The position numbers were made by a program, and so were the translations under genes. A model generated the notes under the pieces. That model was not told the DNA's origin, did no database searches, and worked only from the letters and a program-made list of their open reading frames with translations. From positions 2,914,001 to 2,978,000 of the forward strand of contig CP126197.1 in the NCBI GenBank assembly GCA_030272155.1: a DNA stretch of 64,000 nucleotides, written 5' to 3'. Source of the stretch: Tetradesmus obliquus. Taxonomy: Eukaryota; Chlorophyta; Chlorophyceae; Sphaeropleales; Scenedesmaceae. This document shows, in pieces, positions 1,836 through 42,515 of this stretch; within the stretch, counting starts at the first letter, position 1; each line of letters begins with the position of its first letter.

Positions 1836-4776
1836 ATGGATGCTGGGCCAGCAGCTCTGGAGCTGAGCCAGAGCCAGGGGCAGGGTGAGAGGGGCGGTCT
1901 TTTAGCTGCAGCAGGGACTGATTTTGTTTGTCGGAACCAGTCAGTTACATCGTATTGCAAAGATCATGCCTCGAGATGCCTTGCAGCAGTCCCACGGGAC
2001 GCTGGTGTGCCGCTCCGCACGCAGGGTCCGCTGCCGGCAAGAGTCTGGACAGCCACCCGATGTACCCATGTGCTAAACTTAAACTGGACCAGCTTTTCCT
2101 TCAGTGGCTGTCGCTGCCGGACTCGCAGCAGCTGGTGAGCAATGCATTTTGGCGGCAAGGCGGGCAGCTGTGCAGTTCAGTCCTGCATGGCAGCAAGCAC
2201 AGCAGCAGCCATGCAGGCCTCTGTCAGCTCGCAGCTTGAAACGTGTTTATCACGTTGGCAGGCTGCCATGCTGCTGTCTTGCGCTGCTGAGCATCCTTGC
2301 ATGGTGCTGGCGGGGTGCTGCTGTCCTACAGGTGTCCAACCTAGTTGAGGATGCTAAGCAGGGCAAGTCGCTCAAGGGCCCCAGCAGCAGCAGCTTCACA
2401 ACGCCGCTGTCGCCTACTACAGCGCACGCTATCTTCTCGTCAACGGTATGTGTTCCCATGCGCGCCTGATGCACGCAATGCAAGCTTGAGCAGACCACCC
2501 AGTGCAGTCTGTCAGCACAACAATGCATGCATGATGAGAAGCAGGACACACCAGCGATTGTCACAGCGATCATCTACAGCTCTTAAGTAACGTCCAGGGT
2601 GTTTCACATGTTGTTGCAACATGGTGAACCGGAGTAGGCCTTGTACTACAGTCTGGCAATGCAGAAGCAGCGCACAGCTGTCTGGTAGCATGTGTGCGTT
2701 CTGAGTGCCTGCCTCACCTTAAAGCATCATCAACAGCAGCACTACCACCACCACCACCAGCTGGTTTGGCTCCAGCACTCACGCCATGCATGCTGCCGCT
2801 GCAGCCGCCGCTGTCACCGCAGAAGTGCCGCTCGCCCTGCTCGCCCATGTCTCCCACGCGCCGGCAGTCCACCAGCAGCGCACTGCGGCGGGTGAGTGTC
2901 CTGCAACGAAGCTGCAACAGCAGCAGCAGTGCAAGCACGAGGGCCAGCAGCAGCACAGCAGCTGCAGCAGGCGCACCAGGCTGTTAGCAGCAAGTTTCCT
3001 GCAAGGAGCAGCAGCATTTGACATCAGCTGCTGCAGTTCGAGCAGCATGAGCGCATCTGTTGGGGTTTCACATGTTGTGCCGAGCCCTGCGGCATGGCAG
3101 CAGTAGGTTGGTTCGTGCAGCTAGGAGCTTGTCACACGCAGCCGGTGGCTGGTGGCTGGTGGCTAAGCAATTGTTGTTTGTGGATGGTGCATACAGCACT
3201 GTCAGCACGGCCCAATGCTGCAGAGCAGGAAGTCAACATGCAACATAACACATTCTGCAGCAGCACAGGTGGTGACCTGTATCACCTCAAAGTCGCGCAC
3301 ACATGCTTCAATCACACCCTGCTTTGTAATTCAAATGTGTGTTACTTTACTTGTTACTTGCTGTGCAGCCGCCGCTGGCGCGCATCCCGCAGTTCTACTT
3401 CCCCAGCGGCACTGCGCCAGTCAGCGAGGACGTGCGCGGGCTGTTCCACGCGCGCGTCAACGCGCTGTTCGACCCGCACCCTGCAGGGCTCAACCTGGAG
3501 CAGTTCAGCAGCGTGGTGCAGGAGGTGTGTGGTGCGACCTTGAAGCGTGCGGCGATCTGTGCTTTGGAAAAATGTGTTGATGTCTCTTTTGGCAGCAGCA
3601 GTGTTCAGGTGTCAGTGCTCCTGTTTGCTGCCCTGCTCCTGCAATTGTGCCAGGCATTACGCAACTTGTGCACCATCATCCTTGGCCAAGCGTGCACCAC
3701 TAATCTCTAAAGGTGTGATACGATCCGTCAAACATTGCGTCTGGCTGCTGCTGCTGCTGCTGCCGCAGGTGTGCCAGCTGCCCACCATCCTGGCGCACCC
3801 CTGGTTTGAGCGGCTGGTGTCAGGCAGCAGTGAGCGGCTGGTCAGCAAGGCAGCGTTCGTGGAGTGGTGGAGCAGCAGGCAGCTGGTGGCGGCGCCAGCC
3901 ACGCGGCGGCTGTGGGAGGTGCTGCGGCCGGATGGAAAGCAGCACCTTACGTATGCAGACTTCAGGCCGCTGCTGCAGGTGGGTAGGGGTGGTTTGCAGG
4001 ATTCTGTTGGTGTTGGGGACGATGTGTTGGTGTAGGGGCGGCTGTAGAGGTGCTGCTTTTGGATGGGACAGCTGCACCTCACGTGTGCAGACTTCAGGCC
4101 GCTGCTGCAGGTGGGTGTGAATGGATGGTTCAGGGTGTTCTTGTAGGCACAATGTTGTGGCGTTGGGGACGATGTGTTGTTGTAGGGGCGGTTGTGGGAG
4201 GTGCTGCGGCGGGATGGAAAGCAGCACCTGACATATGCGGACTTCAGGCCCCTGCTGGAGGTGGGTAGAGGTGGTTTTTGCAGGAATAATGTTGTATCGT
4301 TGAGAGGACGATGTGCTATTGTAGGGGTGGCTGTGGGAGGTGCTGCGGAGCGACGGCAAGCAGCACCTGACATATGCAGACTTCAGGCCCCTGCTGCAGG
4401 TGGGTGGGGAGATGGATGGTGGCAGCTGCAGGGTGGCATTATCAGTGATGGTGATCAGTGATGCTGATGACGTGCTTGCGTAGGCCATGGCTGGGCTAGC
4501 AGCTGCAGGAAGTTGGCAGGGGCAAGGATTTCTGTTACTGAGACTGAGGGAGGGCACCATCTGTTGCTGTGCTGCAGGCTGTGCTGCAGTACCACCCCGG
4601 GCTGGAGTTCCTGGCAGACACGCCCGAGTTCCAGGCGCGCTACGCGGAGACAGTCATCTACCGCATCTTCTACACCATCAACAGGTGGGTGCAGCAGCAA
4701 CAGCAGCAGCAGCAGCAGCAGCAGGAAAAGCACAACGGTCATCTACCGCATCTTCTACACCATCAACAGGTGGGTG

Positions 4777-4827
<51 letters not shown>

Positions 4828-4878
4828 GAAAAGCACAACGGTCATCTACCGCATCTTCTACACCATCAACAGGTGGGT

Positions 4879-4933
<55 letters not shown>

Positions 4934-4993
4934 CAGGAGCAGGTAAAGCACAATGGTCATCTACCGCATCTTCTACACCATCAACAGGTGCGT

Positions 4994-5044
<51 letters not shown>

Positions 5045-5354
5045 ACAGCAGCGGCAGGAAAAGCACGACGGTCATCTACCGTATCTTCTACACCACCAAC
5101 AGGTGCACCGGGAGCGGCCTTTCAAGCTCCTCATCTGATGAAGGAATCAGCAGCTTATTAACACAGCAGCAGGAGGATCAGGGCGCAAGGGCAGCAGCTG
5201 GCCAGTGCAAGGCAGGCGGGCCGCAAGAGCGCGGGCAGCCTGTTGCAAACGCAGCAGCAGAGGGCGCAGCGGTGCACTCCATTTCATTGGGCGGCTGTCA
5301 GCAGCTGTGAGACTACCTCAGCATACGCAACGCTGCGGTTGCTGACGAATGGCA

Positions 5355-5388
<34 letters not shown>

Positions 5389-6900
5389 GCTGCCTGCAGG
5401 TCTGGCAGCGGGCGCATGAGCTACCGTGAGCTGCGGCGCAGCGACCTGCTGGACGCACTGTTTGCGCTAGAGCGAGAGGAGGACATCAACAGGTGTGTGC
5501 AGCGATGATGTTCTCAAACATGCCTGTGATGGTGGTTGTTTGTAGCCTGTTTTGACAGTGTGATGCAGTGCAGCTAGGATGCGATGGGCGGTTAATGGCA
5601 TGCCAGCAGTTGCGGCGGCTGTGGTGTGTAACGCCGCATCATCAGCCTCTGCAGCATGCTGGCAGTATGCCTTCAGTGCTGCCTGCTTGCCTGACTTTCT
5701 CCTCTACCCTTGCTTGCAGGGTGCCGCGCTACTTCAGCTGCCAGTACTTCTGTGTGGTGTACTGCAAGTTCTGGGAGCTCACCTGCCTGCTTATCTGCCT
5801 GCTTGCCTCACTGTCTCGCCTTTGCTTGTGCAGGGTGCCGCGCTACTTCAGCTATGAGCACTTTTACGTGGTGTATCGCCTGCTTACCTGCCTGCTTGAT
5901 TGCCTGCTTGCTTCATGTGTTGCAGGGTCCCCCGCTACTTCAGCTATGAGCACTTCTACGTGGTGTACTGCAAGTTCTGGGAGCTCACCTGCCTGCTTCT
6001 CTGCCTGCCTGCCACACTGTCTCGCCTTTGCTGTTGCAGTGTGCCGCGCTACTTCAGCTATGAGCACTTTTACGTGGTGTATCGCATGCTTACCTGCGTG
6101 CTTATCTGCCTGCTTGATTGCCTGCTTGCCTCATGCTGTTGCAGGGTGCCGTGCTACTTCAGCTATGAGCACTTCTACGTGGTGTATCGCCTGCTTGCCT
6201 GCCTGCTTGATTGCCTGCTTGCCTCATGTGTTGCAGGGTCCCCCGCTACTTCAGCTACGAGCACTTCTACGTGGTGTACTGCAAGTTTTGGGAGCTCACC
6301 TGCCTGCTTATCTGCCTGCTTGCATCACTGTCTCGCCTTTGCTTGTGCAGGGTCCCCCGCTACTTCAGCTATGAGCACTTTTACGTGGTGTACTGCAAGT
6401 TCTGGGAGCTCACCTGCCTGCTTATTTGCCTGCTTGCCTCACTGTCTCGCCTTTGCTTGTGCAGGGTTCCCCGCTACTTCAGCTATGAGCACTTCTACGT
6501 GGTGTACTGCAAGTTCTGGGAGCTTGATGGCGACCACGACTTCAGCCTGGAGCGCGCTGACCTGGCGCGCTACGCCAACTGCGCGCTGACCTACCAGATT
6601 GTTGAGCGCATCTTCGAGGAGGTGGGTTTTATTGAAATCAACTTTTTTGCGTATGTTCATGATATGTAGTTTGATGTCTTCACACTTTAGTTGTGTGGTG
6701 TCTTCTGATTTAACCTCAGCAGCGGCGTGCCAGGCATGATGGGCTCCGAGGACCTGGCTTTGGACTGATTTGTGTGAGCGCTGTTGCTTGCCCTGCTGCC
6801 GCTGCTGGCGCCGCGCAAGTTCAGCAGCAGCCTGCCGGGGTGCATGGGCTGCGAGGATAGTAAAATTCAGACTGACTAATATTGTTTGCGACGGTGCTTG

Positions 6901-6936
<36 letters not shown>

Positions 6937-9900
6937 AGGCGCCGCGCAAGTTCAGCAGCGGCGTGCCGGGGCGCATGGGCTACGAGGACTTTGTGTGGTT
7001 CATCCTCAGCGAGGAGGACAAGACCACTGAGACCGCCATGGAGTACTGGTTCAGGTGCGGCGGCTGACCATCGTGGTCGTGGTTGTGGTTGTGGAGAGAT
7101 AAGTGATAGTGTCGTTGGGGATTGAGTGTTGTAGATTTGGATGCAGGGCGGTGGGGTGGTGTGTGCGCCGGCAGCTGTGTGTCCAGCAATGCAGTTTAGG
7201 CTGTGCCATTTTGTGTGGAATGAAAAGCGACCTGGGAGAGCTTCGGAGCGAGATTTGTGGCGCGCTGCGGTCACTGCAATTTTGCGGTGTGTGGATGAAG
7301 CGTGGGCAAGTGACGTATTGGGCATGCGGGCATGCGAATGGGGATTTGGGCTCAGCACCGACTTCAGAGCGCAAGAAAGTTACGAGAGCCCCATGCGTCC
7401 GATACTGGCTGCATGGCAGTGTGTGGTGCTTGGTTGGATCTATTGCTTGTGCACAGGCTCTGCCGCTGCTGCTGCAGCTGCTGGCTGGCGGCTGATTCTC
7501 TTGCTCACCATAATCATTATCAGGTGGAATGTCTTAGCTGTCAGAGTGAACGCTCTCGCAGCTCAGACATCCAACCTGCCACTGATGATGATGAGCAGGA
7601 GAATCAGCCGCCTGCCAGCAGCTGCAGTGGCGGCAGCTGGAGAGCCTGCAACAGCACAGCAGATGTCAAGAATGCACAATCACGAGTTGCGGCTGCACTG
7701 CATGTCCTTGCCCCCCCTTGGCACCTCATGCGCAGTGTTGAGCTGGCATGAGTCCGTCCAAGCTGCACCTGCGCACAAGCCTCAGGCAGATGGCGGTTTA
7801 ACACCACATCCACCGTGCAGGGGTGGACGTGGTATTGAAGCGCAATCTGCCTGAGGCTTGTGTGCAGGTGCAGCTTGAATGGACTGATGCCAGCAGGCAG
7901 CAGATGCTGTACTGGTAGCCGACCGGTCGCATCTCAGCCTTTAGTGGTTTGCAATCTGGTGTTGCAGCTCTCAGTGAGTGCCGCCCAGCCTGCAACAAAC
8001 ACCTGCCCAGGAGCAGCACTTGCTCATAGCCGGAGTGTCCATGATGCCCCACGCCTGTGCGGGCGTGGTGGTTAGGGATGCGCGGGGTATAAGCAATCGC
8101 TGCTTCCTTGGCAAGTGTCTGTGATGTGTGCTGCTTGCGGTAATGCTCCAGTGCTAGTGCAGCACATGCAATGAAAGGAGGGTTGGCATGACATGCGTAC
8201 ATACTCCTCGAAGCACGTGTTACTGGGGCGGAAGGTTTTGCACGTGCTGAGTATGCATGTTGTCGTCTGCTTGCTTCATTCTGGCTGGTCTTCTTTTCTC
8301 CATCGCCCCGCAGGTGTGCTGACCTGGACTGTGACGGCGTGATGACGCTCGAGTGTGGCTGTGTTATTTTCATACCGTGGATGCTGACTGCGTATCTGCT
8401 GCTTGCTATTCTGTGCATTGCTGCAGGTGCGCCGACCTGGACTGTGACGGTGTGATCACACCCAGTTTCAGCCGTATCATGTAAGGTAATGTCAACCAAA
8501 GCTGTCTACTTTGCTGCTTTCTCTTGTCGTGTGCCTCACTGCAGGTGTGCCGACCTGGACTGTGACGGCGTGATCACGCCCAGCGAGATGTGGCACTTTT
8601 ATGAGGAGCAGATGAAGCGCCTGGAGGGGCTCAGTCAGGTGAGGGCTGCTGCTGCTGCTGCTGATTGCAACTGGTTTTGTTTGTGCATCTGAGACCCGTT
8701 GTTGCAGCACCATGATGCTTGCCCGGTCTGTTGCCATCTTTTGTCAGGCCAGAACCCTGTCAGGAGCACGTGCAATTGTGCTTTCTGGTGTCATTCCATT
8801 CTTTCTTGCCCCAGCAGGAGCCGGTGTTGCTTGAGGATGTGCTGTGCCAGCAGCACGACATACACAAAGCTCAGCTGACCGCTGTGATGTCATCGATGTA
8901 ACACATTATTTCTTGCCGCTGCAGGAGCCGGTGCTGTTTGAGGACGTGCTGTGCCAGCTGCACGACATGCTGCAGCCAGCCCGCGAGGGCTGCTACACGC
9001 TGGCTGACGTGCGCCGCACGCGCCCACAGAGCAGCCTGCTCTTCAACACGCTCTTCAACCTGCACAAGTTCATGGCCTACGAGAACAGGTGCGGGCACTA
9101 GGCCATGTGTTTGTGTTCAGCTGGGAGCGTGCGTGCGTGGGCCTGCATATAGCATGACGTGTAGGTGGCATGCTGGTGAATATGCACAAGTTCATGGCCT
9201 ACGAGAACAGGTGCGCGGACTAGGCCATGTGTTTGTGTTCAGCTGGGAGCGTGCGTGTGTGGGCCTGCATGATATGACGTGTACGTGGCATGCCGGTGGA
9301 CACGCGCAAGTTCATGGCCTACGAGTGCTTGGATGGAGGCCTGTATGTCACAGCGCTGGTTGACATGGTGTTTGTGCTGCATATGCAGCGATGATTGCTG
9401 TCAACGCGCGCGATCAGTGTGCTACCCGACTCAGGCATCCGTATACTTGGTTGGTGTTAGAACTGACTGTATGCTGTGTGTCATGTGTTTGCTGTGCTGC
9501 AGGGACCCCTTTGCGCTGCGCGCTGAGCAGCTGGGCGAGGACCATTATGCACCCGCATGCATGCACCTCTCTACATCATCTCATGTATTCCTGTTTGATG
9601 CCTCTCTTCAAATGTAGGGACCCCTTTGCGCTGCGTGCTGAGCAGCTGGGTGAGGAGGGGCAGGTGCTGAGCGACTGGGACAGGTTTGCGCGCAGCGAGT
9701 ACCTGCGCCTGGCGGTGGAGGAGGAGCCCGAGGACATGCAGGTGGGACGTTATGACATTGTTACCTTGCTGTTACTTTTGTCGCAGCTGTTAATTCACAT
9801 TGTGGTGATGGTTGTCAAAGAGGTTTTGCGAAATGTCAGTGCAGCGAGTACCCGTGCCTGGCGGTGGAGGAGGAGCGCGAGGACATGCAGGTGGGCGGCG

Positions 9901-10484
9901 ACATGTTGTTATTGTGTTATGTTATTTTGTGTTATTTATTTTATCTGTTGAGTGCTCAGCCACTGAAGTGTGTTGGAGGACAGCGCTCGCAATCAATGAC
10001 GGCTTTTGCGAATGTGGCTTGAAGGGGGTGATTGCAAGCGTCAGCAGCTGGGCGAGCCGGTGCGCCGCTGCACGTCGATGTCTTGTCACATGCTTCCTTA
10101 CTGTTGTTTGCACCCCTTCTCCTCAAACCGCAGGTGGATGCAGCGGACGACATGTGGGGCGCTGCCGGCAGCAGAGGCGCAGCAGAGGCGCAGCAGGTGG
10201 CAGCAAGATGCTGCTGTGCCACACCATATGCTGAAATGCTGACACGAATGTTTGCACGTGCTGTGCCTTCACCCTGCCTGCAGGTGGATGCAGCAGACGA
10301 CATGTGGGGCACTGCGGGCAGCAGAGGGGCAGCAGGCGGCGGCAAGATGCTGCTGGAGGCGGGCGAGCCTGATGAGGATGACCTGGTGGCTGGGCTGGGG
10401 TCAGCAGCAGGCGCGGCAGCAGACTTCATGGCAGCAGGCAGCGACACAAACAGCGGCGCTACTGCCATGGATGCGGCCAGCTGA
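1836..10484 (+). CDS. PP2A B''-type regulatory subunit (EF-hand), 14 exons
   Basis: Regulatory/targeting subunit of protein phosphatase 2A that binds the scaffold A subunit and Ca2+ (family knowledge: plant B''/TON2, animal PPP2R3). Proposed exons: 1836-1884, 2025-2134, 2332-2445, 2805-2891, 3369-3524, 3769-3978, 4578-4684, 5400-5492, 6465-6621, 6939-7054, 8545-8638, 8925-9088, 9618-9741, 10284-10484; all phases agree, giving 593 aa. Diagnostic segments in order: [58 protein letters not shown], an EF-hand-like DGDHDF loop, [18 protein letters not shown], a canonical EF-hand [28 protein letters not shown] and [14 protein letters not shown]. Start ATG sits in ACCATCATGG. The first two exons are less certain than the rest. 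Introns carry multiple exon copies. TGTAA lies at 10589-10593. Confidence 0.88.
4029..4405 (+). repeat. three echoes of PP2A B'' exon 6 (3' end plus donor)
   Basis: Downstream of exon 6 the exon's last ~70 nt and the first intron bases recur three times (about 4043-4118, 4188-4265, 4328-4405). Each ends in the coding GACTTCAGGCC motif followed by a GTGGGT donor. The last two keep the [21 protein letters not shown] reading with few changes; the first is more diverged. Each is separated by similar intron filler containing GACGATGTG. Confidence 0.85.
4725..5110 (+). repeat. four echoes of PP2A B'' exon 7 end, each with a CAG tract
   Basis: The exon 7 end (ACGGTCATCTACCGCATC...AACAG|GTGGGTGC) recurs at about 4737-4772, 4839-4874, 4953-4988 and 5069-5103. 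Every copy is followed by a CAG/CAA run of 30-60 nt, ending in an AAAGCAC spacer before the next copy. The unit is about 100-115 nt. The long poly-Gln or poly-Ala open frames across this block are by-products of the repeat. Confidence 0.88.
5705..6464 (+). repeat. seven echoes of PP2A B'' exon 9 start with acceptor
   Basis: Eight CAG acceptors, each followed by the start of exon 9, end at 5719, 5833, 5925, 6039, 6144, 6236, 6350 and 6464, spaced 114, 92, 114, 105, 92, 114 and 114 nt. The last leads into the full exon (6465-6621). 114-nt units carry coding sequence to FWEL and then intron-like CACCTGCCTGC filler; 92-nt units lack 22 nt of coding sequence. Copies 2, 3, 4, 6 and 7 match the exon's protein reading exactly over the shared part. 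Confidence 0.92.
6714..6863 (+). repeat. two decayed echoes of PP2A B'' exon 10
   Basis: Before exon 10 (6939), the segments at about 6716-6760 and 6808-6863 resemble its start (GCGCCGCGCAAGTTCAGCAG, then GTGCCGGG...ATGGGCT...GAGGA). Both carry amino-acid changes and lack a full exon. They look older than the exon 9 echoes. Confidence 0.75.
8300..8470 (+). repeat. two echoes of the PP2A B'' EF-hand exon start
   Basis: Copies of the acceptor and EF-hand loop start of exon 11 (8545) end their acceptors at about 8313 and 8427. The first reads [11 protein letters not shown] and the second [12 protein letters not shown], so the Ca2+-loop residues are kept. Both then run into intron-like sequence without the rest of the exon. 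Confidence 0.85.
8815..9900 (+). repeat. echoes of PP2A B'' exons 12 and 13
   Basis: Partial copies around exon 12 (8925-9088) and exon 13 (9618-9741): a 5' copy with CAGGAGCCGGTG at 8816-8880; two 3' copies with CACAAGTTCATGGCCTACGA at about 9185-9215 and 9303-9330 (only the first keeps the donor); a 5' copy of exon 13 with GGACCCCTTTGCGCTGCG at 9502-9542; a 3' copy of exon 13 at about 9836-9900 with the GAGGACATGCAG|GTGGG donor. Confidence 0.85.
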
Positions 10485-11010
10485 GGTTTCTCGGTGGCTG
10501 CTCGGTGCCTGCAGCTGGCAGTGAGGTAGTGCTTTATCTGCATGCAGCAGCAGCAGCAGAAGCCGCGGCCGTTGGTGCTGCACAAGCATGTAAAATGCTG
10601 CTGGAGGAGGGCGAGCCTGATGAGGATGTCCTGGTGGCCGGGCAGGGGTCAGCAGCAGGCGCAGCAGCAGACTTCATGGCAGCAGGCGGCGACGCAAACA
10701 GCGGCGCTACTGCCATGGATGCAGCCAGCTGAGGCAGCTTGAGGGTGCCTGCAGCTGGCAGTACAAAATAGTGCTGTTTGTGCACGCAGCAGCAGCAGCG
10801 ATGCAGGCGGCGGCGCTACTGCCATGAGTGCAGCCAGCTGAGGCAGCTTGAGCTTGAGCTTTGCTTGCTGGAGGTGTGCCTGCAGCCGGCAGTGAAGTAG
10901 TGCTCTTTGTGCAGCCAGCAGCAGCAGGCAGCTGAGAGAGTTCGAGCTCGAGCTTGCTTGGCAGTGCTGCCTGCAGCCAGCAGTGGTGAAGTGTTGTGCA
11001 TGTGCAGCCA
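10130..11010 (+). repeat. echoes of the PP2A B'' terminal exon on both sides
   Basis: A 5' echo with acceptor lies at 10131-10205. After the true stop (10484) a near-complete copy of the exon's 3' half runs about 10594-10732 and ends in the same GCCAGCTGA stop. Further shorter copies of the ATG-GATGCAGCCAGCTGAGG end follow at about 10810-10850 and 10920-10990 with CTGCAGC filler. The 10594 copy has about as many replacement as silent changes, in a low-complexity tail. Confidence 0.85.
10589..10593 (+). promoter_or_regulatory. candidate poly(A) signal TGTAA
   Basis: First TGTAA after the PP2A B'' stop, about 105 nt downstream, at the start of the first post-stop echo. TGTAA is the established green-algal polyadenylation signal. 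If used, most post-stop echoes fall outside the mRNA. Confidence 0.5.
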
Positions 11011-14830: not shown

Positions 14831-14833
14831 CCA

Positions 14834-15281: not shown

Positions 15282-16122
15282 GGCAGGCACCCAGCTGCAG
15301 GTGCGCAAACATTCCTTGCATGCATCTGACACTTGCTGCCGTCAGCCCTAGCAGCTCCCTTACCAAATCTATAAATCAAAGGTAAGATAAGTAGATGCCT
15401 CACACAGGCGCCCCACACCCAAAACTCATAGCACCTCACCCAACGTTGCAAAAAAAACCCTACTAACACCCTCACTAACAGCAACAACATCATCACTGCA
15501 CGCCGACCCACCTGCACCAGGTTGCGGACGTTCTTGCGGTTGCCGGACACCTTGACTGTCACGTTGTCGATGCCCGCCAAGTCACACAGCTCAGTCACCA
15601 CAGGGTTGGCAGTCACGCCAAAGCCTAAGAATGTTAGCTCGCACGGGCGCCCCAAACCCCTGCATCTCCCTGCGCCACACCCACGCACCACCATATCAGC
15701 ACCTTTACTAACAAAATAACATCATCACCGCACGCCGACCCACCTGCACCAGGTTGCGGACATTCTTGCGGTTGCCGGACACCTTGACTGTCACGTTGTC
15801 AATGCCCGCCAGGTCACACAGCTCCGTCACCACAGGGTTGGCAGTCACACCAAAGCCCAGCTCACGAGGCCAGACCTGCATGCGGATCTGTGATGTAATG
15901 TGGCAGCACAGGCAGATGCAGCAGATCTTTCAGCAGAGCCACACCTGCATGCAGATCTGCGCAGCAAAGCAGCAGCGCATGCAGCAGGGAAGATGCAGCA
16001 GCACGAATTTGGGCCGTAAATACGCAGCAGCTACACAAGGGTGCTGCAGCAGTGATGCAGCACAGTGCACCGCTGGAATAAGTGCACGTCCTTCTTACCG
16101 TCACACTCGCGCCTGAGACAAC

Positions 16123-16162
<40 letters not shown>

Positions 16163-17509: not shown

Positions 17510-17542
<33 letters not shown>

Positions 17543-20663: not shown

Positions 20664-20704
<41 letters not shown>

Positions 20705-22355: not shown

Positions 22356-22387
<32 letters not shown>

Positions 22388-25300: not shown

Positions 25301-25629
25301 TTTGGTGCTTTGTTACGCTTTTTGTAACCCTTAGACAGACAGGCCGTGTTCGCGCTGACCAGCAAGTACAAGTGGGTGCTGAGCGGCACACCGCTGCAGG
25401 TGCGGAGCAGGTTGTCGCAAATAACTTCCTTTTCAAGCTGTTGGACAGAGGGCAGTGTTTCCATGCAGAATGTGAATTCTCCAACCTTGTCAAAACAGGT
25501 GTTTCTTGCGTCCGCCTGCCACTTACCCAGGCAGGAGCAGCCTGTCTGTGCATGTGGATTGCTGCTGCCTCCTGCGTGTGCAAAGAGAGTGTTGCGACCT
25601 ACAAACCCTGCTGCTGCTGCTGCTGCTGC

Positions 25630-25668
<39 letters not shown>

Positions 25669-27464: not shown

Positions 27465-27495
<31 letters not shown>

Positions 27496-31129: not shown

Positions 31130-31830
31130 CCGAAGGGTTTGGCATTATTGCGGGCACCATTGAGGAGCGCATCCTGAAGCTGCAGGGCAAGAAGCAGGCC
31201 GTGTTTGAGGGCACGGTGGACAGGGACGCTGAGGCGCTGGGCAAGCTGACTGAGGACGACCTGCGCTTCCTGTTTGGCTGATCGCTTGTGGGGCTGGTTC
31301 GGCAGTAGCTGTGTCTTTTGGCAGGGAGATGGGGGTTCGGAAAGTGTGTGTTTGTGCAGCAGCAGCGGTGCCAGCAGCAGGTGCAGCCGGAGGGTTTGGG
31401 TGTTTGCGGGCACCATCGAGGAGCGCATCCTGAAGCTGCAGGGCAAGAAGCAGGCCGTGTTTGAGGGCACAGTCGGCAGGGACGCTGAGGCGCTCGGCAA
31501 GTTGACAGTAGATGACCTGCGCGTCCTGTTCGGTTAAGCGGCTAGGCGATAGAGAGAAGCTGCGCAGCTACTGGCTGTCTGAGTGGCGGCTCCTGCGGCT
31601 GCAGCTGCATGAAAAGAGCAGGCCGAGTTTCGAGCGCATAATGGGGCGCGATGCAGAGGCGCTCGGCAAGTTGATAGAAGATGCCTAAGGGGTGGCTGGC
31701 TGAAACCTGGAGCAAAGGGCTGCTGCAGCTGCAGGGCAAGAAGCAGGCTGTGTTCGAGGGCACCGTGGGCAGGGATGTTGAGGCGCTCAGGAATTGGCAG
31801 AAGATGACCTGCGCTTCCAGTTTGAATTGA
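31130..31830 (+). repeat. four echoes of the RAD16 terminal exon past the stop codon
   Basis: Copies of the C-terminal coding sequence end at 31281 (TGA kept), 31537 (TAA), and in two poorer partial copies at about 31635-31690 and 31720-31830. The first two keep an open frame to their own stop. The first TGTAA I see after the RAD16 stop is at 32852-32856, beyond all copies. Confidence 0.9.
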
Positions 31831-33084: not shown

Positions 33085-34873
33085 TTACTGTTGCTGCTCT
33101 GCACCCACAGCAGCCAGGGCCTCCTCCAAGTGCCGCTGCAACCTGTCAGCAGTTATCCGGGGCTGGGGGCGCGGCAGCACCACCTGCAGCACAGCAGCAA
33201 CCGGGGAAAGGAAATTTACTTCAGCAGGTCTGGTCAGCTGCACAGTGGTGCGCGTGCGCAAAGCAAAGCCGTGACTTTTAAAACTAGGCAACTGCACTGT
33301 CCAATGCACCCGTCATAAAAAGAAACACAAGCTGTGCTGCATTCTTCTCAAGATTGATTGAGTGATGCTTGGTTCCTCCACAAAACAGCATGTCAGACAT
33401 GACATTGATACTTTGCTGGCGCTGCATTGGCCCAGTGCCAACCAAGCATCTCAGCTGGGACGTGCGCTGATCATGCGAGCCAAGATCATCTGCTGCAGCG
33501 CGTACCTCGCCGCCCTGCTCATCCAGCACTGCCAGCACAACTCTGCAAGCTCTTTGAAGGAGGCAAGGGCTGTGCTGACGTCTGAACGAGGCGCTGTCTT
33601 ATTTGCAAAAGCCCAGCATGCCAGCAGCAGTTTTATACCGCCTGACTGACGCTACCTCAACTCATACCGTACAGAATACACCCCGCGAGGTGATTGGCCC
33701 GCCAGCTGCCAGTTGTGTGCATGTAATTATTGGGTGAAGCATATAATGTAATGTAATGTAATTCGTACCTCGCTGCCCTGCTCATCCAGCACTGCCAGCA
33801 CAGGCACTGACAGGTGCATCGCATCCTGCCACGCCTCGTTAGTAGAAATGTCCCGCACCTGCATGCAGCAGCAAGCAGCAGGTGCGGCTGTGGTGGGAGA
33901 GGACAATGCATTACATTACATAACATTACATAACACAACACTACATTACATTACATTACATTGCAATGCAGCGTTGCAACAATGCGTGGATGCACGGCAG
34001 GAGCCTGCTTCCTCGCCGCTGGCTGCTGCTGCAGGCGGTCCAACTATCGTATGTTGCAACACGTCCACAGACTCCGCTTACACTATCACTCACCAACGTT
34101 TGCTGTTTTCTTTACTCCGCATCCACAGTGCCATCATGTTCCCACAATGCATCCCTGGTGTGCCGCGCATCTATCCATTTATATGTACTCATCACTGGCA
34201 AGCACATGCATGCACAAATTCCTTGCGTATGCATCTGTGCACAAGTGACGGCCCATGCCAAGGGCACAGCATGAGAGAGTATACTAATCCTGGTAGGCAC
34301 GCACCTCCAGCGTTGCGCCGCTCAAGGAGCAGGGCATGAAGTGTGCGCGGTCTATGAGCCCTTGCAGCTTGTCCTGCGAGGGGCCCCGCAGCACACGCAG
34401 CACAGGCAGCAGCAGCATGGTCACAATCAGCACGTGCAGCAGCAGTCATGCTGTGAGACATGAGCAAGTCAGCGGCCTGCTGCAACATGCATGCTTGCCA
34501 GCAGCTGACATTGCATTGCTGCTGCGTCAAGCTTGCAAGCCTGAACATACTAATCACGTCTCACTGTTCTATATTTCAGGTCGGCTGCATCTATGCGCGT
34601 TCATTCTCTGCAGCCTGAAGCACCAATTGCTTGCCAGTTACAGCAGTTCACACTGCATCAGCAGCAGCAGCTGTCACGCACCTTGAGTCCATCACACAGT
34701 GGGCAGTCAGGCTTTGTGTACAGCACAAAGTCGTGCTGGCTGCTGCAGACCAGGGCTGCTCCCCTGCTGCTTCGTCTGCTGTAGCTGGCTGCATGCCTTA
34801 GCAGGGGCTGCTGAGAGAAGCAGTGGCTGGGCCTGGCAATGCTGCGCTTGCCCAGGGTTTGCACAGATGACAT
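33085..34873 (-). CDS. glutaredoxin-like protein (DUF836/Glrx-like), probably plastid-targeted
   Basis: Four phase-0 exons on the minus strand: 34873-34682, 34373-34305, 33858-33769, 33183-33085; 149 aa. Residues 1-45 are Ser/Arg-rich without acidic residues, typical of a transit peptide. The thioredoxin-fold domain follows: FVLYTKPDCPLCDGLK with a CPLC redox pair at the start of helix 1, DKLQGLIDRA, VRDISTNEAW, the cis-Pro strand SVPVLAVLDEQGSE, and a final helix DRLQRHLEEAL. Length and order fit the small Glrx-like (DUF836) family of plants and cyanobacteria; the substrate is unknown. An open frame extends upstream of the ATG without another good start, so I chose 34873. It points away from MTB. 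Confidence 0.78.
33500..33541 (-). repeat. echo of glutaredoxin-like exon 3 end with donor
   Basis: The segment encoding VLAVLDEQGGE followed by a GTACG donor repeats the end of exon 3 (33769-33806) with a single change (Ser to Gly). It lies in intron 3. Confidence 0.88.
33739..33966. repeat. inverted TGTAA/TTACA arrays flanking exon 3
   Basis: About 33744-33763 holds a short TAATG/TGTAA run and 33910-33964 a longer ATTAC/TTACA run with six TTACA units, in opposite orientation, bracketing exon 3 (33769-33858). On the transcribed minus strand the longer array reads as six TGTAA motifs inside intron 2; the two arrays could pair with exon 3 in the loop. Confidence 0.85.
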
Positions 34874-36143: not shown

Positions 36144-36462
36144 GTGGTGAATTCATACCAGGCTATGGAGGCCCTGGTGCAATGGGTGGCGATGCTGCCG
36201 GCATGATGCAAGGCAGCGGCGGTTATGACGTGCCTGGCGGCGGTTATGACACGGGCGGTGGCGGTTACGACATGGCTGGCGGCGGTTATGACATGCCTGG
36301 CGGCGGTTATGGCATGGGTGGCGGCAGTTATGGCTGTTACGGCCCTCCTGGGGGCATGATGGGCCCTGGCATGGCTGGTGGTATGGGCCAGGGCATGATG
36401 GCACCAGGTGCGGCACACGAGGGTTAGATGACCGGCTGCATCACATGGGAACAGATACTCCT

Positions 36463-36500
<38 letters not shown>

Positions 36501-36612
36501 GGCGCATGATGGGCCCTGGCATGGCTGGTGGTATGGGCCAGGGCATGATGTCACCAGGTGCGGCACACGAGGGTCAGATGACCGGCTGCATCACATGGGA
36601 ACAGATACTCCT

Positions 36613-36662
<50 letters not shown>

Positions 36663-36764
36663 GGGGCATGATGGGCCCTGGCATGGCTGGTGGTATGGGC
36701 CAGGGCATGGTGTCACCACCAGGTGGGCATCACAGGAATGTTTGACTGTATCATCTGGCAGTTT

Positions 36765-36797
<33 letters not shown>

Positions 36798-37425
36798 CAT
36801 GATGGGCCCTGGCATGGCTGGTGGCATGGGCCGGGGCATGATGTCACCAGGTGGGCAGCAGGGGAATGCTTGGCCGTAGCATAAATTTTTTTAATAAAAG
36901 ATAAAAAATAAAAAAAATTCTGGCAGATCTGCAGCAGCAGCAGCAGTAGCAGGCGTGATGGCCCCTGGTGTGGCTGGGGCATGGGCCAGGGCATGATGTC
37001 ATCACCAGGTGCGGCACACCAGGGTTGGATCAGAGGCTGAACATGAAACACACTCCTGCAGCAGAAGCGGCAGCAGCAGCAGCGGGCGGAGGGGGGGGGC
37101 ATGATGGGCCCTGGCATGGCTGGGGGCATGAGCCAAGGCATGATGTCACCAGGTGGGCAACAAGGGAATGTCTGAGCAGCAGCAGCAGCAGCAGGAACAG
37201 CGGCGGCTGTGTTGTTGTGCATTCATATGCGCTGATTGCTGTGGCATCTGAAACTGCTGGTCAACCGCGGCGGTGTGTGGCAAACTTTAATGACGCTGCT
37301 TCAGCTGTGGCAGCAGCGCAGCATGAGTGTGTTATGGAGCAGGAGGTGAAGACAGCCCAGCTGTGGACGAGGCGCCCCGCTATGTGCCTGTTGCTCTCTC
37401 TGCTTTCACCGCCCCACCCCTCCTG

Positions 37426-37476
<51 letters not shown>

Positions 37477-38137: not shown

Positions 38138-38185
<48 letters not shown>

Positions 38186-39033
38186 CCTCCTTTTCCTCCT
38201 GCACCTGACAGCATGATGGGGCCAGGGCCTGACAGCAGGCTCGACACACGGCTCTCTGTTGCCAGCAGCAGCGGCATGCAGGGCCCTGCTGCTGCTGCTG
38301 CCGCTGCTGTGCCGGATCTGCCGGGGGTTAATCGGCCGGCCAAGAAGCAGGAGCGCGGCAACGACTACTGCCAGCACTTTGTGGACACTGGCGTGCGGCC
38401 GCAGAACTTCCTGCGAGGTGCGCAGGCCAGCAGCAGCAGCAGCGGCGGCGGAGGCGGCGGCAGCTAGCTATGCAGGCAACTGATCCCTGTCACTCAACAC
38501 TTCTTGTATCTTCTGATTGCAGACTCTGTGCTGGAGGACCGCTACGAAGACTACCCACAGCTGCAGAAGCTCATCCAGCTCAAGGACAAGCAGGTGGGGC
38601 GGGGTTTGCTGGTTCCAGTAGAGAAGTGCAGTAGCAGCAGCAGCAGCAGCAGCAGCAGCATTGTGTAAGCCCAGCAGATGCAGAAGCTCATCCGGCTCAA
38701 GGGCAAGCAGGTGGGGCTTTATGGGGACAGATGCACGGGCAGCAGCAGCAGCTGCAGCAGCAGCAGTGCTGAGGGGCCAAGCACTTGCAGCTAGTTCTGC
38801 AAAGAGGAGATGTTCAACGCGTCTCTGCCTTGGCACGTTGCAGGTGCGCAACCACACCACGCCACTTTATGCGCTGAATAGTTATTGCCTGGGCAGTGCT
38901 GCATGAACCAAAGAAAATACAATGACCTTCATTGGTGTGCCGCAGGTGCGCGATCACACCACGCCGCCATATGCGCTGCGGGCTGACCTGAAGAAGCTGG
39001 CCCTTAGCAAGGAGGTGTTCGGCACAAAGTGAG

Positions 39034-39070
<37 letters not shown>

Positions 39071-42048
39071 TCTGCACATGTGTTGCAGACGCTTGCACTA
39101 TGCAGTGCGGCATGCAGCTGCCGTTGCCAGCAGGGTGAGCTTTTTCTTGGTGAGCGTCCTGAGGCTGGCTTGGTGCAGACAGTGTGCTGTGATGTATGAG
39201 ATCATGAGGTGGCATGCAATTGTTGGCATGCAATTGCATGCAATTGTTGTCATGGATCGTGTTACTTTTGCAGGTTTGACGTCATCCTGATCGACCCGCC
39301 CTGGGAGGAGTATGTGCGGCGCGCGCCAGGGTTTGTGTCAGACACAGACTTCTGGAGCTGGCAGGAGATACAGGCACTGGACATTGGCGCTGTTGCGGAG
39401 GTGCCCAGCTTTGTGTTCCTGTGAGTTCAATTCCTGCTGATTTCAGCAGGTTTCATACAATTGTAGGCAGCAGCAGGTGCAGGCACTGGACATTGGGCTG
39501 TTGCGGAAGTGCCAAGCTTTGTGTTCCTGTGAGTTTAGGTTGGGGCGGGATTTGGCAGAGTCAGCAGCAAACATTGGTGGCAGCAGCAGGAGATACAGGC
39601 GCTGGACATTGGCGTTGTTGCGGAGGTGCCCAGCTTCGTGTTCCTGTGAGTAAAATTCACATCACAGCAGCAGCACCAGCAGCAACATCAAGTGGAGGAA
39701 CTTTGAGCACTTGACATGGGGGCCATCTCAAGGTGTCGAGCTTTGGGACGCAGCAGAGCTTGCTGCTAGCTGTAGCAGTGGTGTTTCAACTGTAAGCTAT
39801 GTGCTGCTGCTGCTGCTGCTGCAGGTGGTGTGGCAGTGCTGAGGGGCTAGATGCTGGCAGGCACTGCCTGCGCAAGTGAGTGACCTGCTAGTGATTTCAG
39901 CCTACCACTACCTGCTAGTGTATCCCTGTGCCAGCTGTGCGTTATTGTGCACAGTCGTAACACGCTGCCCATGTGACTGCTGGAGGCTGGTGTGGTGGCT
40001 ACGGCCAGCCAACCCTGCTGTGGTATGCAGATGCGGTACGATTGCAGCTGTGCATTGTAATGCACTGTTGTTGCACACCCTTAGGACTTTTGGGGTTGAC
40101 GCCATGCCGTACTGTACCAAACATGCGGTGTGCTGCTGTGCTGCTGTGTGGGGCTCAGGTGGGGCTACAAGCGCGCCGAGGACATCTGCTGGATCAAGAC
40201 CAACACGCAGCACAAGAGCCGCAAGTACCTCATACCCACATACCAGCAGGAGGGCAGCATGCTGGTGCACACCAAGGTACAGCACATTCAAACATTAGAA
40301 TCGATATTTGCATATACTTTGACTTTTGATCGCCATGATCATCACACCTGCTTACTGGCAGGAGGGCAGCATGCTGGTGCACACCAAGATGCTGTGGCAC
40401 AAGCCAGCTTTTCACAGCTCTCGCACCTCTCCCTGCTCTGGGCTCCGCACCCCACCCCTCGTTCACCACCTCTCACCTCTCACCCAATTGCACACCCAAT
40501 TGCACACCCAGCACCATCACACAATCTATATTATGGCCTGATGGGCATCCGCGACAATGTGAAGCGTGGTTTGGATGGGCACCTCATTCACACCACCTCA
40601 GCGCTGCAAGCTGCTGCTGATGTATGCTACACGCTGCTGTTTGTAGGAGCACTGCCTGATGGGCATCAGGGGCAGTGTGAAGCGTGGGTTGGATGGCCAC
40701 CTCATCCACACGACCGCAGTGCTGCAACCTGCTGCTGCTGATTGCTTCTGCTGCTGCTGCTGCTGCTGCTTGCAGGAGCACTGCCTGATGGGCATCCGAG
40801 GGAGCGTGAAGCGTGGATTGGATGGGCACCTCATCCACACCAACGTGGACACTGACGTCATCGTCAGCGAGGAGCCGCCACTGGGCAGCACAGAAAAGCC
40901 TGAGGAGCTATACGACATTATTGAGCGTTTCTGCGCCGGCAGGTGGATGTCATTTTCACGGTTACATTTCCTGCTTTGTGTACAATGTGTGACTTGTTAC
41001 GTGTGCACAGGCGGCGCTCAGCAGTACGGAGATGCCCAAGGAGCTCTACACCATTATAAAGCGGTTCTGTGCCGACAGGTGGTTTCTACATTCTCATCAC
41101 GATGTTATGTATGTTATGTGCCACGTCATGAGTGAGAAGCCGCGGCTGGGTAGCACGGAGAAGGATCAGAACTGTAAAACAACCCAAGGAACTGCATAAC
41201 ATCTTAGAGCGCTTCTGCACTGGCATTTGTTTGATACTTTGTATGTTACTAGTTGCGCTGTGCTAATAGCTACTCTGCGGGCCAATTCGTTGTTGGAGAA
41301 CCGCCTCAAGGTACCTGGGCATGGCATGCTGCAACAGAGTGTCTAAGCGCAGGTAGGAGCATTGCGTTCAGAGTCAGCATGACGTAACAGTGGACATCCA
41401 CCTTTGTGGACGCTACCGACTTGATAGCTTGGCTGACACATGTGCGCTGACTGGTGTGCGGCTTGCCCTCACTGCCTGGCCCGCAGGCGGCGGCTGGAGC
41501 TGTTTGGTGAGGACCGCAACATCCGGCAGGGCTGGGTCACAGTGGGGCGCGCCATCACGCAGAGCACCTTCAGGCCACAGGTAAAGGTGCCTTTGATCCA
41601 CGCTGCAGCTCATGCATGGTGCACTTGCAATGCGGCGCTGCCTGCACACATGTTGTCGGCTCGTTCTGTCGATGCATCTGCACAATTAAATGTACGACCT
41701 CCGTCATGGCTTGCTGCTGTTTTGTTGAACATGTTATGACATGGATCTGATCACACCCCCACAGCGCTGACAGAGTTGCAACCTCGCTGTGCCGCATGCG
41801 CACCTGCATCATTTGTGCCAAGGGGACAATGTGCGCCCCTTTCGCCCACACTTGCTGTTTGTTATCTCCTGCCGCAGGCGTACCTGCACCACTTCCGCAA
41901 TGAAGATGGTGTGCCATATGACGAGCACAGGGGCAGGCCACCCCCAGGGGTGCCGGTGCTGGTGCCCAGCACGGCAGAGATAGAGGAGCTAAGACCGCGC
42001 AGCCCACCACACCACCATGGGGGTGGCGGGCGCGGCAGGGGCAGGTAG
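36144..42048 (+). CDS. MTB: METTL14/MTB-type subunit of the mRNA m6A methyltransferase (5' end unresolved)
   Basis: Non-catalytic partner of METTL3/MTA in the nuclear m6A writer complex. Proposed exons: 36144-36407, 37490-37736, 38185-38417, 38523-38593, 38946-39028, 39274-39420, 39825-39875, 40159-40276, 40776-40942, 41487-41580, 41878-42048, all in phase, about 548 codons. The N-terminal part is Gly/Met/Tyr-rich (GGYD and GPGG repeats). The MT-A70 domain starts near [20 protein letters not shown] and has [77 protein letters not shown] and a RGRGR* RGG tail. DPPW, not the EPPL of animal METTL14, is as in plant MTB. The first coding exon is missing or unidentified. Heavy exon echoes surround most exons. 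Confidence 0.87.
36485..37165 (+). repeat. five echoes of the MTB Gly/Met-rich exon end, with CAG tracts
   Basis: The segment reading [15 protein letters not shown] plus CACCAG|GTG recurs at about 36505-36565, 36664-36725, 36797-36855, 36950-37008 (decayed) and 37098-37158. Each is preceded by a CAG run; the first two units are about 158 nt apart. The ACCGGCTGCATCACATGGGA filler is shared by the first two. Confidence 0.9.
37905..37988 (+). repeat. TGCTG pentanucleotide microsatellite
   Basis: About 16 tandem TGCTG (GTGCT) units in MTB intron 2, immediately upstream of an echo of exon 3. Confidence 0.92.
37999..38080 (+). repeat. echo of MTB exon 3 start
   Basis: TCAG|GCTCCCTTCCCTGGCCCTGACAGC... 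resembles the true exon 3 start at 38185. In the phase set by exon 2 it hits a stop, so I took the 38185 copy as the real exon. Confidence 0.75.
38665..38895 (+). repeat. echoes of MTB exons 4 and 5
   Basis: 38674-38715 repeats CAGAAGCTCATCC-GCTCAAGG-CAAGCAG|GTGGGGC of exon 4. 38841-38880 repeats the exon 5 acceptor and start ([11 protein letters not shown] versus [11 protein letters not shown]). Confidence 0.85.
39455..39740 (+). repeat. three echoes of MTB exon 6 end
   Basis: [20 protein letters not shown] plus its GTGAGT donor recurs at about 39473-39535 (frameshifted) and 39586-39652 (two silent changes and Ala to Val), with a remnant near 39700-39745. Confidence 0.85.
40340..41225 (+). 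repeat. echoes of MTB exons 8 and 9
   Basis: 40358-40392 repeats the exon 8 end ([10 protein letters not shown]). About 40536-40600 and 40648-40712 repeat the exon 9 start (CLMGIR...[12 protein letters not shown]). About 41028-41082 and 41127-41222 repeat its end ([19 protein letters not shown]) with increasing decay; the first keeps a CAG|GTGG donor. Confidence 0.85.
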
Positions 42049-42054
42049 CAGCAG

Positions 42055-42515
42055 CAGTAGCAGTGCTGGTGCCCAGCACAGTAGTTATAGTGGAGCTAAG
42101 GGCACGCAGCCCACCACAGCATGGGGGTGACTGGCGCGGCAGGGGCCGCTAGTAGCAGCAGCAGCAGCAGGAGCAGCAGTAGCAGCAGCAGAAGCATGTG
42201 GCAGTGCTGCTGGTGGCCAGCACTGCAGAGATGAAAGAGTTGCGGCCGCGCAGCCCACCACACCACCATGGGGGTGGCGGGCGCGGCAGGGGCAGGTAGC
42301 AGCAGCAGTAGCAGCGCGGGAAGGCGGCAGCACCAGCAGCAGCAGCAGCAGCAGCATGCGGCAGCAGCAGGAGCAGCAGCATGCGGCGGCACCAGCAGCA
42401 GCAGCATGTGGCAGTGCTGCTGGCGCCCAGCACTGCAGAGATAGAGGAGCTGAGGCCGCGCAGCCCGCCACACCACCATGGGGGTGGCGGGCGCGGCAGG
42501 GACATGTAGCAGCAG
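42055..42515 (+). repeat. three echoes of the MTB terminal RGG exon past the stop
   Basis: Copies of [29 protein letters not shown] with a TAG stop lie at about 42064-42155 (damaged), 42206-42298 and 42409-42508. In the last, the [18 protein letters not shown] part differs from the exon by three silent changes only. The first TGTAA I see after the MTB stop is at 43069-43073, beyond all copies. Confidence 0.88.

Follow-up and report, generated by a model that had tools for sequence, protein, structure and literature searches.

Truncated copies of exons stand in tandem beside their exons in four modelled genes of the alga Tetradesmus obliquus, at 29 of 72 intron borders and in 22 of 36 introns, and nearly all of them keep the adjoining splice site. 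The explanation that we favour, with modest confidence, is tandem duplication of units straddling the exon border, followed by refreshment of the copies from diverged coding alleles.

Partial exon copies at exon borders

The window, the whole stretch of 64,000 nucleotides that was analysed, is part of a 6.12 Mb contig of the T. obliquus assembly OEZ86. Four genes were modelled, with GT..AG borders and phases that agree: RAD16 with 17 exons, PP2A B'' with 10 checked exons, MTB with 9 and uS5m with 4. Pfam backed the four family assignments, and the PP2A B'' model was 100% identical to the annotated OEZ86_007771. Each exon was compared with its adjacent intron or 3' flank, which gave 80 matches. 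We kept 65 of them for the counts (bit score of at least 50 and a low-complexity filter); the 15 others were of low complexity or below bit 50, five weak copies among them. The intron-wise array count (36 introns, 72 borders) uses a looser cut-off of at least bit 38. The genes and copies are as follows.

3369..10484, plus: PP2A B'' gene, 10 checked exons (gene start in the sequence-only reading, 1836)
4037..4399, plus: three donor-type copies, exon 4 end (exon-intron match)
4735..5102, plus: four donor-type copies, exon 5 end, CAG-rich intron between (exon-intron match)
5720..6410, plus: seven acceptor-type copies, exon 7 start; unit types about 114 and 92-105 bp
6808..6857, plus: exon 8 start copy, acceptor AG lost (a weaker one at 6716-6753, bit 43)
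8314..8465, plus: two acceptor-type copies, exon 9 start (exon-intron match)
8818..8861, plus: acceptor-type copy, exon 10 start (exon-intron match)
9183..9325, plus: donor-type, exon 10 end; copy at 9183-9210, shorter one at 9304-9325 (bit 36)
9503..9541, plus: acceptor-type copy, exon 11 start (exon-intron match)
9841..9890, plus: donor-type copy, exon 11 end (exon-intron match)
10134..10216, plus: acceptor-type copy, exon 12 start (exon-intron match)
10592..10841, plus: two copies of terminal exon 12, behind the stop (exon-3' flank match)
15744..18423, minus: uS5m gene, 4 exons modelled (model and Pfam)
17267..17693, minus: four copies, exon 2 start; acceptor AG lost in the outermost
16773..16974, minus: two donor-type copies, exon 2 end (exon-intron match)
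16519..16564, minus: acceptor-type copy, exon 3 start (exon-intron match)
15512..15625, minus: donor-type copy (114 nt), exon 4 end
19342..31027, plus: RAD16 gene, 17 exons (model and Pfam)
21455..21826, plus: three copies, exon 3 start; two with a common 2-nt frame-breaking deletion
24275..24306, plus: donor-type copy, exon 6 end (exon-intron match); its last codon encodes the residue found in the protein of a second assembly, OEZ85, not that of the OEZ86 exon
24846..24883, plus: donor-type copy, exon 7 end (exon-intron match)
25031..25069, plus: acceptor-type copy, exon 8 start (exon-intron match)
25341..25399, plus: donor-type copy, exon 8 end (exon-intron match)
25885..25915, plus: donor-type copy, exon 9 end (exon-intron match)
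27095..27160, plus: donor-type copy, exon 12 end (exon-intron match)
28238..28795, plus: five copies, exon 15 start; the outermost (28238-28273, bit 39) below the bit 50 cut-off
29642..30223, plus: three donor-type copies, exon 16 end, units 225-255 bp, mosaic synonymous variants
30331..30750, plus: four copies, exon 17 start (exon-intron match)
31147..31824, plus: four copies of terminal exon 17, behind the stop (exon-3' flank match)
33501..33802, minus: one exon-end and donor copy, putative glutaredoxin-like gene (repeat pair)
36350..37166, plus: exon-end and donor copy array, MTB region, Gly/Met-rich 5' portion (by-eye reading; outside the counts)
38184..42048, plus: MTB (MT-A70 domain) gene, 9 exons modelled (model and Pfam)
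38670..38710, plus: donor-type copy, exon 2 end (exon-intron match)
38844..38876, plus: acceptor-type copy, exon 3 start (bit 38; only in the looser count)
39470..39645, plus: two donor-type copies, exon 4 end (exon-intron match)
40342..40388, plus: exon 6 end copy, donor GT lost (exon-intron match)
40536..40711, plus: two copies, exon 7 start (exon-intron match)
41021..41078, plus: donor-type copy, exon 7 end, 75.9% identical (bit 43; only in the looser count)
42063..42509, plus: three copies of terminal exon 9, behind the stop (exon-3' flank match)

A sequence-only reading of the window had reported such copies with their splice sites, and they proved more extensive than it had supposed. The maximum of seven extra copies and the copies behind stops that it described are confirmed, the former 5' of PP2A B'' exon 7 and the latter in RAD16, PP2A B'' and MTB. 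For the glutaredoxin-like gene, whose name comes from that reading, the claim comes down to a single 39-bp pair (33501-33539 and 33764-33802, 97%). KDTA and the Cys-rich genes, also named there, had been described as free of copies, and we found no arrays in 42601-64000.

An array holds one to seven copies. The exon border is reached by 58 of the 65 filtered copies, as a duplication crossing the border demands. The AG is retained in 26 of 28 acceptor-side border copies and the GT in 23 of 24 internal donor-side ones, where a one-nucleotide alignment offset was allowed in two copies over both sides. Local repeat pairs in the window are direct in 80 cases and inverted in none; the 52 internal spacings have a median of 120 bp (interquartile range 114-139, sometimes about 250 bp); and the intron flank of 32 of 52 border copies surpasses every one of the 37-38 unrelated introns compared. 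Orientation, constant unit and flank homology together identify local, direct, head-to-tail tandem duplication. Detectable flank homology is absent in 20 of the 52 copies, so there the tandem unit is deduced from spacing only. The position of acceptor-type copies 5' and donor-type copies 3' of the exon, noted earlier as a rule, is the pattern observed and needs no special process, because any tandem duplication across a border places its copies in this way.

Contribution to intron length

The arrays make up 7,554 of the 16,810 bases (45%) of the 36 introns examined, which bears out the earlier suggestion of a role in intron growth. Introns with arrays average 596 bp, compared with 264 bp for those without, and without their arrays the 36 introns would average 257 instead of 467 bp. 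The portion of the literature cited here gives a mean intron of 462 bp for T. obliquus versus 230-302 bp in four other green algae (PMC5966456), and the copies could explain this difference.

Spread through the genome

Local direct-repeat arrays of window-like size were found in 17 of 20 sampled 10-kb loci, in which exon borders are unannotated. In these loci the arrays number 78, or 3.9 per 10 kb, and cover 16% of the bases; 62 of them have a unit of 80-160 bp. There are 200 local direct pairs versus 2 inverted ones, and the locally shuffled versions of the loci gave 0 pairs. Two genes outside the window, one for a kinesin and one isocitrate-dehydrogenase-like, were also read as carrying copies. 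Four of seven exon pieces from other loci matched Pfam, three above the curated cut-off (one Iso_dh, two Kinesin), and the copied isocitrate-dehydrogenase-like exon itself gave no Pfam match. Array codon scores in the sampled loci and the window are alike (median percentile 0.73 versus 0.75), which is suggestive only, the codon-usage classifier discriminating weakly (true-positive rate 0.40 at a false-positive rate of 0.05). The sampled loci and the two genes support the view, already put forward from the window, that the process is general in this genome.

Codon-position pattern of the copies

Differences between copy and exon are distributed over codon positions one, two and three as 61/73/218 (218 of 352 at the third; 65 copies), a third-position share of 62% that reaches 77% in copies at least 94% identical. 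Counted by effect there are 191 synonymous changes, 121 nonsynonymous changes and one stop, whereas 26% synonymous is expected for neutral change. Copies behind stops have a similar bias (23/20/54), and the 22 copies from the kinesin and isocitrate-dehydrogenase-like genes, which belong to few arrays, gave 24/9/59 (60 synonymous, 22 nonsynonymous, no stop). Copies of one array are non-independent. Frame-blind three-base periodicity was 897 versus 765±11 in the sampled loci and 343 versus 307±7 in the window. Base composition was rejected as the cause, because every one of the four bases has a higher rate at third positions than at first and second ones.

The third-position spectrum is symmetric (GC>AT 87, AT>GC 84), which would fit a coding past on both sides. 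Divergence at third positions is 0.182 in the 21 copies without first- or second-position change and 0.172 in the 15 copies with at least four; such flatness is expected if the divergence predates the copy, and it may arise from copies rich in both kinds of change dropping below the detection cut-off. Four-gamete mosaics occur in 9 of 18 informative site pairs (shuffled mean 11.8), with recurrent mutation as another possible source. These counts are small; some arrays come near the free-recombination shuffle, and others have none. Some pairs of copies, such as those of RAD16 exon 3 with the common deletion, resemble plain neutral duplicates, which speaks against conversion there.

Origin of the copies

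In the scenario that we favour, short units of genomic DNA, about 120 bp and in a minority about 250 bp, are duplicated repeatedly in tandem across an exon border, giving the three kinds of unit seen in the anatomy (intron with exon start, exon end with intron, exon end with 3' flank). The copies would be tolerated because one complete coding exon is still present, with the additional units placed in the intron or after the stop, as the gene models have it and as splicing presumably allows. In the 36 introns, repetition takes the length from about 250 bp to some 600 bp. After its birth, the intron part of a copy would decay, while gene conversion, or unequal recombination with diverged alleles of the population, would keep the exon part in exchange with coding alleles, leaving mostly synonymous differences between the copy and the local exon. 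Either border duplication is favoured, or border units may survive and stay detectable longer. The allele step would need a synonymous diversity of roughly at least 0.1 among coding alleles, a value assumed here on one genome.

Recombination between haplotypes had also been proposed for the arrays. As a fault of assembly or haplotype merging, it appears highly improbable. The neighbouring locus-tag prefixes OEZ85 and OEZ86 suggest one submitter and a common pipeline, so a shared fault remains conceivable; against it, copies within one array, up to 7-8 in number, differ by several percent and in unit length, and arrays of like size recur in the 17 sampled loci. The annotated OEZ85 protein corresponding to RAD16, encoded on a different contig (6,027,792 bp), also contains one window array, with two terminal-exon copies besides the exon. 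As exchange with diverged coding alleles, the proposal is the one that we favour for the synonymous pattern. That pattern would also follow if the copies were alternative exons or exon extensions kept by protein selection, as would their single stop and 14 frame-breaking gaps in all in 65 copies, and a first- and second-position divergence of 0.038 versus 0.099 in the alignable intron flank (26 of 52 copies; the flank value is a lower bound). However, not one of the 24 donor-type or 32 acceptor-type copies has a good splice site at the truncated end, when chance alone gives 5-6%, and cassette exons were rejected on this ground; an acceptor-like AG at the start of donor-type copies, suspected at first, likewise failed splice-site scoring. 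In-frame extension through the copy's own splice site was rejected as well, since copy offsets are divisible by three in 18 of 52 cases, showing no frame bias, and use of the proximal site would keep the frame and stay open in 7 of 52 only. The lack of sites and of frame bias argues against selection on translated copies, ten PP2A B'' proteins, annotated or transcript-derived, have no extra copies, and the copies behind stops share the bias. The suggestion that the arrays are a source of alternative exons therefore found no support, and we regard functional exons as improbable.

Plain neutral duplication at uniformly random places, with neutral evolution of the copies, is unlikely, if less so than functional exons. 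Exon-internal duplications would be purged and intron-only ones would decay below detection, leaving those at borders, and this would explain the geometry, the modest loss of splice dinucleotides, the decayed copies and the acceptor-side breakpoints, which are as expected under a uniform null with the branch-point region exempted. Yet this process predicts 39% intron-only arrays, and none was seen among 29 arrays in 36 introns, where 18.6 are expected at full detectability, 8.2 at 0.44 (P=7e-4) and 3.7 at 0.2 (P=0.03). On the donor side the exon share of the unit never exceeds 0.60 in 15 arrays (P=4.5e-4), a neutral copy of a constrained exon is estimated to have a third-position share of about 45%, compared with the 62% and 77% above, and a rough maximum-likelihood comparison went against it (logL -262.6 versus -238.0). 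Two of the four fits lay at an extreme gamma shape, with an overflow warning. A splicing-linked seeding at borders, whether by an RNA route (reverse splicing, or reverse transcription of pre-mRNA pieces) or by breaks that the splicing or chromatin landscape places at exon edges, would account for the border restriction, the narrow unit size and the centring of units on the border, which is significant on the donor side only. We judge it slightly less probable still than functional exons: the units are contiguous with the intron flank and in tandem, both of which DNA duplication gives directly, last-exon 3' ends, which are no splice sites, are copied too, and tolerance alone would suffice for the acceptor-side breakpoints. 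Border seeding as first proposed is favoured by the lack of intron-only arrays and by the exon part contained in 75 of 76 genic repeat pairs, and it may partly reflect better survival of exon-containing copies; border preference is supported, but confounded by survival. CAG/CTG repeats were rejected as seeds, runs of at least 12 nt being no more enriched in introns with arrays (10 of 22) than in those without (6 of 14).

Comparison with known systems

In tandem exon duplication, the source of mutually exclusive exons, whole exons are copied with both splice sites. The T. obliquus arrays likewise place extra exon copies in the neighbouring intron, but these are truncated and without the distal site, and none is a complete exon. 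The cited part of PMC4974935 describes a single gene, potato RdRp, which gained an intron through a tandem duplication across an intron-exon boundary, with acceptor, polypyrimidine tract and branch site included in the unit; the boundary is crossed in both cases, but in T. obliquus no new splice pair is seen, up to 7 copies occur, and the pattern is widely spread in the genome. The model of Rogers (AGGT duplication), as outlined in the cited sections of PMC4974935 and PMC2891723, also involves a short intragenic tandem duplication that leaves the spliced product unchanged; there an exonic unit becomes an intron, whereas here the units are part intron, existing introns grow, and the truncated ends have no good sites (0/24 and 0/32). 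Fill-in by Pol alpha-primase at breaks with 3' overhangs yields small tandem duplications with no need of a repeat or homology and is a candidate first step; the cited text describes it in mouse and human cells at designed breaks with about 50-nt overhangs, with no link to exon borders (PMC8355091). Introners, in the cited account, copy themselves into many genes across a genome (PMC9860276); large-scale intron remodelling is common to both, but each copy described here was found by its likeness to its own neighbouring exon. Our searches of open-licence literature, with the terms used, found no report of this exon-border copy pattern. Border-crossing duplication is already known, and its multi-copy, widespread, intron-lengthening form is a new variant.

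Implications

It is possible, though we advance it tentatively, that the process continues and is aimed at borders: duplications of about 120 bp would arise preferentially where exon and intron meet, tens of thousands per genome if the density of 3.9 arrays per 10 kb in the 20 sampled loci holds throughout, roughly doubling intron length, and each intron would keep former coding alleles as a recombining record of the synonymous history of its exon. The arrays seem to trip gene prediction, as in the OEZ85 protein, and they could serve as a gauge of gene conversion between coding and non-coding copies. The growth of introns and the source of their sequence are an old question with few cases caught in the act. 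A cultivable, sequenced alga with many datable events per gene offers a natural test bed for the growth of gene structure.

Exon copies within introns and behind stop codons

The window (G000:C7:2914001-2978000; the genome has 104,662,953 bases in 17 contigs) yielded gene models with GT..AG introns and consistent phases for RAD16, PP2A B'', MTB and uS5m. Pfam backs the family assignment of all four models, and the Tetradesmus obliquus protein OEZ86_007771 is 100% identical to the PP2A B'' model. Each exon was compared with its neighbouring introns, and last exons with 1.5 kb of 3' flank; the counts omit the two uncertain 5'-most PP2A B'' exons. Score and complexity filters were passed by 65 of the 80 matches. 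These partial exon copies ("echoes") are spread over 31 exon ends, of which 28 are internal borders and 3 are gene ends; 32 copies precede their exon, 33 follow it, and 58 of the 65 reach the exon border. With a looser cut-off, at least one copy was found at 29 of 72 intron borders, in 22 of 36 introns, with both ends occupied in seven introns. The arrays include:

PP2A B'' exon 7: seven copies 5' of the exon
RAD16 exon 15: five copies 5' of the exon, one of them weak
RAD16 terminal exon: four copies 3' of the stop
Glutaredoxin-like gene (as previously named): a single 39-bp repeat pair

All five genes named in the sequence-only reading thus carry echoes, but the glutaredoxin-like gene, whose identity is putative, has only this one pair. 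The array of PP2A B'' exon 7 (5720-6410) holds two interleaved unit types with different breakpoints (exon parts of 60 nt and 41-42 nt), which suggests that two founding duplications occurred independently at this border.

Distribution in the genome

Twenty 10-kb loci (L009-L028) were sampled elsewhere; they are the first twenty of 60 drawn at random from known stretches on 14 of the 17 contigs. Arrays were found in 17 of the 20 loci (78 arrays, 32,707 of 200,000 bases), where exon borders are unannotated; by a weak classifier, their coding score is similar to that of the window arrays. Repeat pairs were direct rather than inverted both in the window (80 vs 0) and in the sampled loci (200 vs 2), and local shuffles of the loci gave none. 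In the randomly drawn L012, echoes of an isocitrate-dehydrogenase-like exon lie beside an exon with an Iso_dh match, and eight copies pass the filters. A kinesin gene also carries echoes in L029, a locus chosen for its repeated matches and not picked at random. These loci support the proposal that the process is general in the genome. Two further observations concern these loci: intron pieces between the isocitrate-dehydrogenase-like exon copies (L012:7504-8751, minus strand) are rich in TTTGACTTTTG-like repeats, and a 5-kb self-match of 99.1% at an offset of 2,566 bp (L026:1731-9295) is a recent large tandem duplication of another size class than the echoes.

Array presence within the window is strongly heterogeneous, from gene to gene or regionally. 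Positions 1-42600 hold 7.7 arrays per 10 kb, covering 31%, and no array was found in the 21 kb of 42601-64000, in agreement with the earlier impression that KDTA and the Cys-rich genes lack echoes. Two genes there, called Cys-rich in that reading (43490-44623 and 46239-47465), are apparent tandem paralogues about 2.75-2.85 kb apart, with 77% and 72% identity, each over about 350 bp.

Copies behind the RAD16 stop are not peculiar to this assembly: another T. obliquus assembly encodes, on a 6,027,792-base contig, the protein OEZ85_012982, which shares 95% identity with the RAD16 model across the searched region and whose C-terminal end carries three in-frame occurrences of the terminal-exon peptide. 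The predicted RAD16 gene of that strain has absorbed terminal-exon copies. No echo was visible in the ten PP2A B'' proteins read, including OEZ86_007771.

Geometry and border preference of the duplicated unit

Acceptor-type copies lie 5' of the exon, donor-type copies 3', and terminal copies behind the stop, as had been noticed, but this pattern needs no special mechanism because the geometry of tandem duplication forces the side. Tandem duplication of a unit of exon end, donor and intron would place the extra copy downstream, inside the intron; a unit of intron, acceptor and exon start would place it upstream, and one of exon end and 3' flank behind the stop. The intron part belongs to the duplicated unit, as flank homology shows: for 32 of the 52 border copies, the adjoining 90 nt match the 90 nt at the real border better than every unrelated intron compared. 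In the other 20 they do not beat the unrelated introns compared. Successive internal border copies have a median spacing of 120 (IQR 114-139, n = 52 spacings). Larger values occur in RAD16 exon 16 (225-255), in uS5m exon 4 (232) and at the gene ends of RAD16 (254) and PP2A B'' (248); a spacing of 266 in RAD16 exon 15 merely skips a copy short of the border. The smallest offset is 80-160 bp in 62 of the 78 arrays of the sampled loci. The exon share of the unit is 0.43±0.10 and never exceeds 0.60 in the 15 donor-side arrays (P=4.5e-4 against a uniform null sparing the branch-point region); the 13 acceptor-side arrays are unremarkable against this null.

An exon part or exon copy is present in 75 of 76 genic local repeat pairs. 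Six of eight nongenic pairs contain no part of a modelled exon: five belong to the array at 36350-37166 and one to the glutaredoxin-like gene, and we read both places as unmodelled exons. Uniform placement, calculated from the observed units and from estimates of ancestral intron length, predicts 39% wholly intronic arrays. None of the 29 arrays is wholly intronic, where 18.6 would be expected at full detectability, 8.2 at 44% (our estimate from flank scores; P=7e-4) and 3.7 at 20% (P=0.03). Seeding of the duplications at exon-intron borders, proposed earlier, is supported by this deficit but not proven; survival bias is a possible alternative because the exon parts of copies are apparently retained alongside the coding sequence.

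Origin of the differences between copies and exons

Copies differ from their exons at 61, 73 and 218 first, second and third codon positions; 191 changes are synonymous, 121 non-synonymous and 1 a stop (random expectation 26/71/3%). The bias fades with age, the third-position share being 30/39 at identities of 94% or more and 30/66 below 85%. Outside the window the counts are 24/9/59, with 60 synonymous changes vs 22 not; copy-copy comparisons, which are not independent, gave 118/122/289, and a frame-blind analysis of the sampled loci gave a 3-periodicity of 897 vs 765±11. Third-position divergence is about 0.16-0.18 with or without first- or second-position changes. The third-position spectrum is symmetric (GC>AT 87, AT>GC 84; outside the window 21 and 34), which is not expected from intron decay of a copy.

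The suggestion that the copies serve as alternative exons found no support. Good splice sites, scoring above the weakest tenth of real sites, were found at the truncated end of 0/24 internal donor-type and 0/32 acceptor-type copies (chance 5-6%), and the offsets of the copies are not biased toward any frame. In both respects the copies look unlike ordinary exons. Because the coding signature comes without exon-like truncated ends or frame bias, we infer that coding alleles are the source of the synonymous differences, which came in either with the birth of the unit or through later gene conversion. Selection acting on the copies is a rival explanation of the synonymous signature. Of 18 informative site pairs, 9 show four-gamete mosaics, in line with the allelic reading. 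At the RAD16 exon 6 donor (24154), the resident exon reads CAT/GTGGGG and the echo CAG/GTGGGG; the OEZ85 protein has Q, and this match to the echo is in line with an allelic origin. The resident donor may have been weakened.

Precedents and intron growth

The closest known parallels are the AGGT tandem-duplication model of intron gain (PMC4974935, PMC2891723) and the potato RdRp, in which a border-crossing tandem duplication created a new intron (PMC4974935). In T. obliquus, in contrast to the potato case as described there, it is existing introns that grow, and no newly formed splice pair was seen. Fill-in at breaks, described as giving small tandem duplications (PMC8355091), is a candidate first step toward the echo units.

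A role in intron growth, one of the possibilities raised earlier, is supported by the 36 introns, which shrink from 16,810 to 9,256 bases, a difference of 7,554, once the arrays are subtracted (mean 467 to 257); introns with an echo average 596 and those without 264. The reported mean intron is 462 bp in T. obliquus and 230, 302, 284 and 270 bp in four other green algae (PMC5966456). Echo arrays would thus suffice to explain the long introns of T. obliquus.
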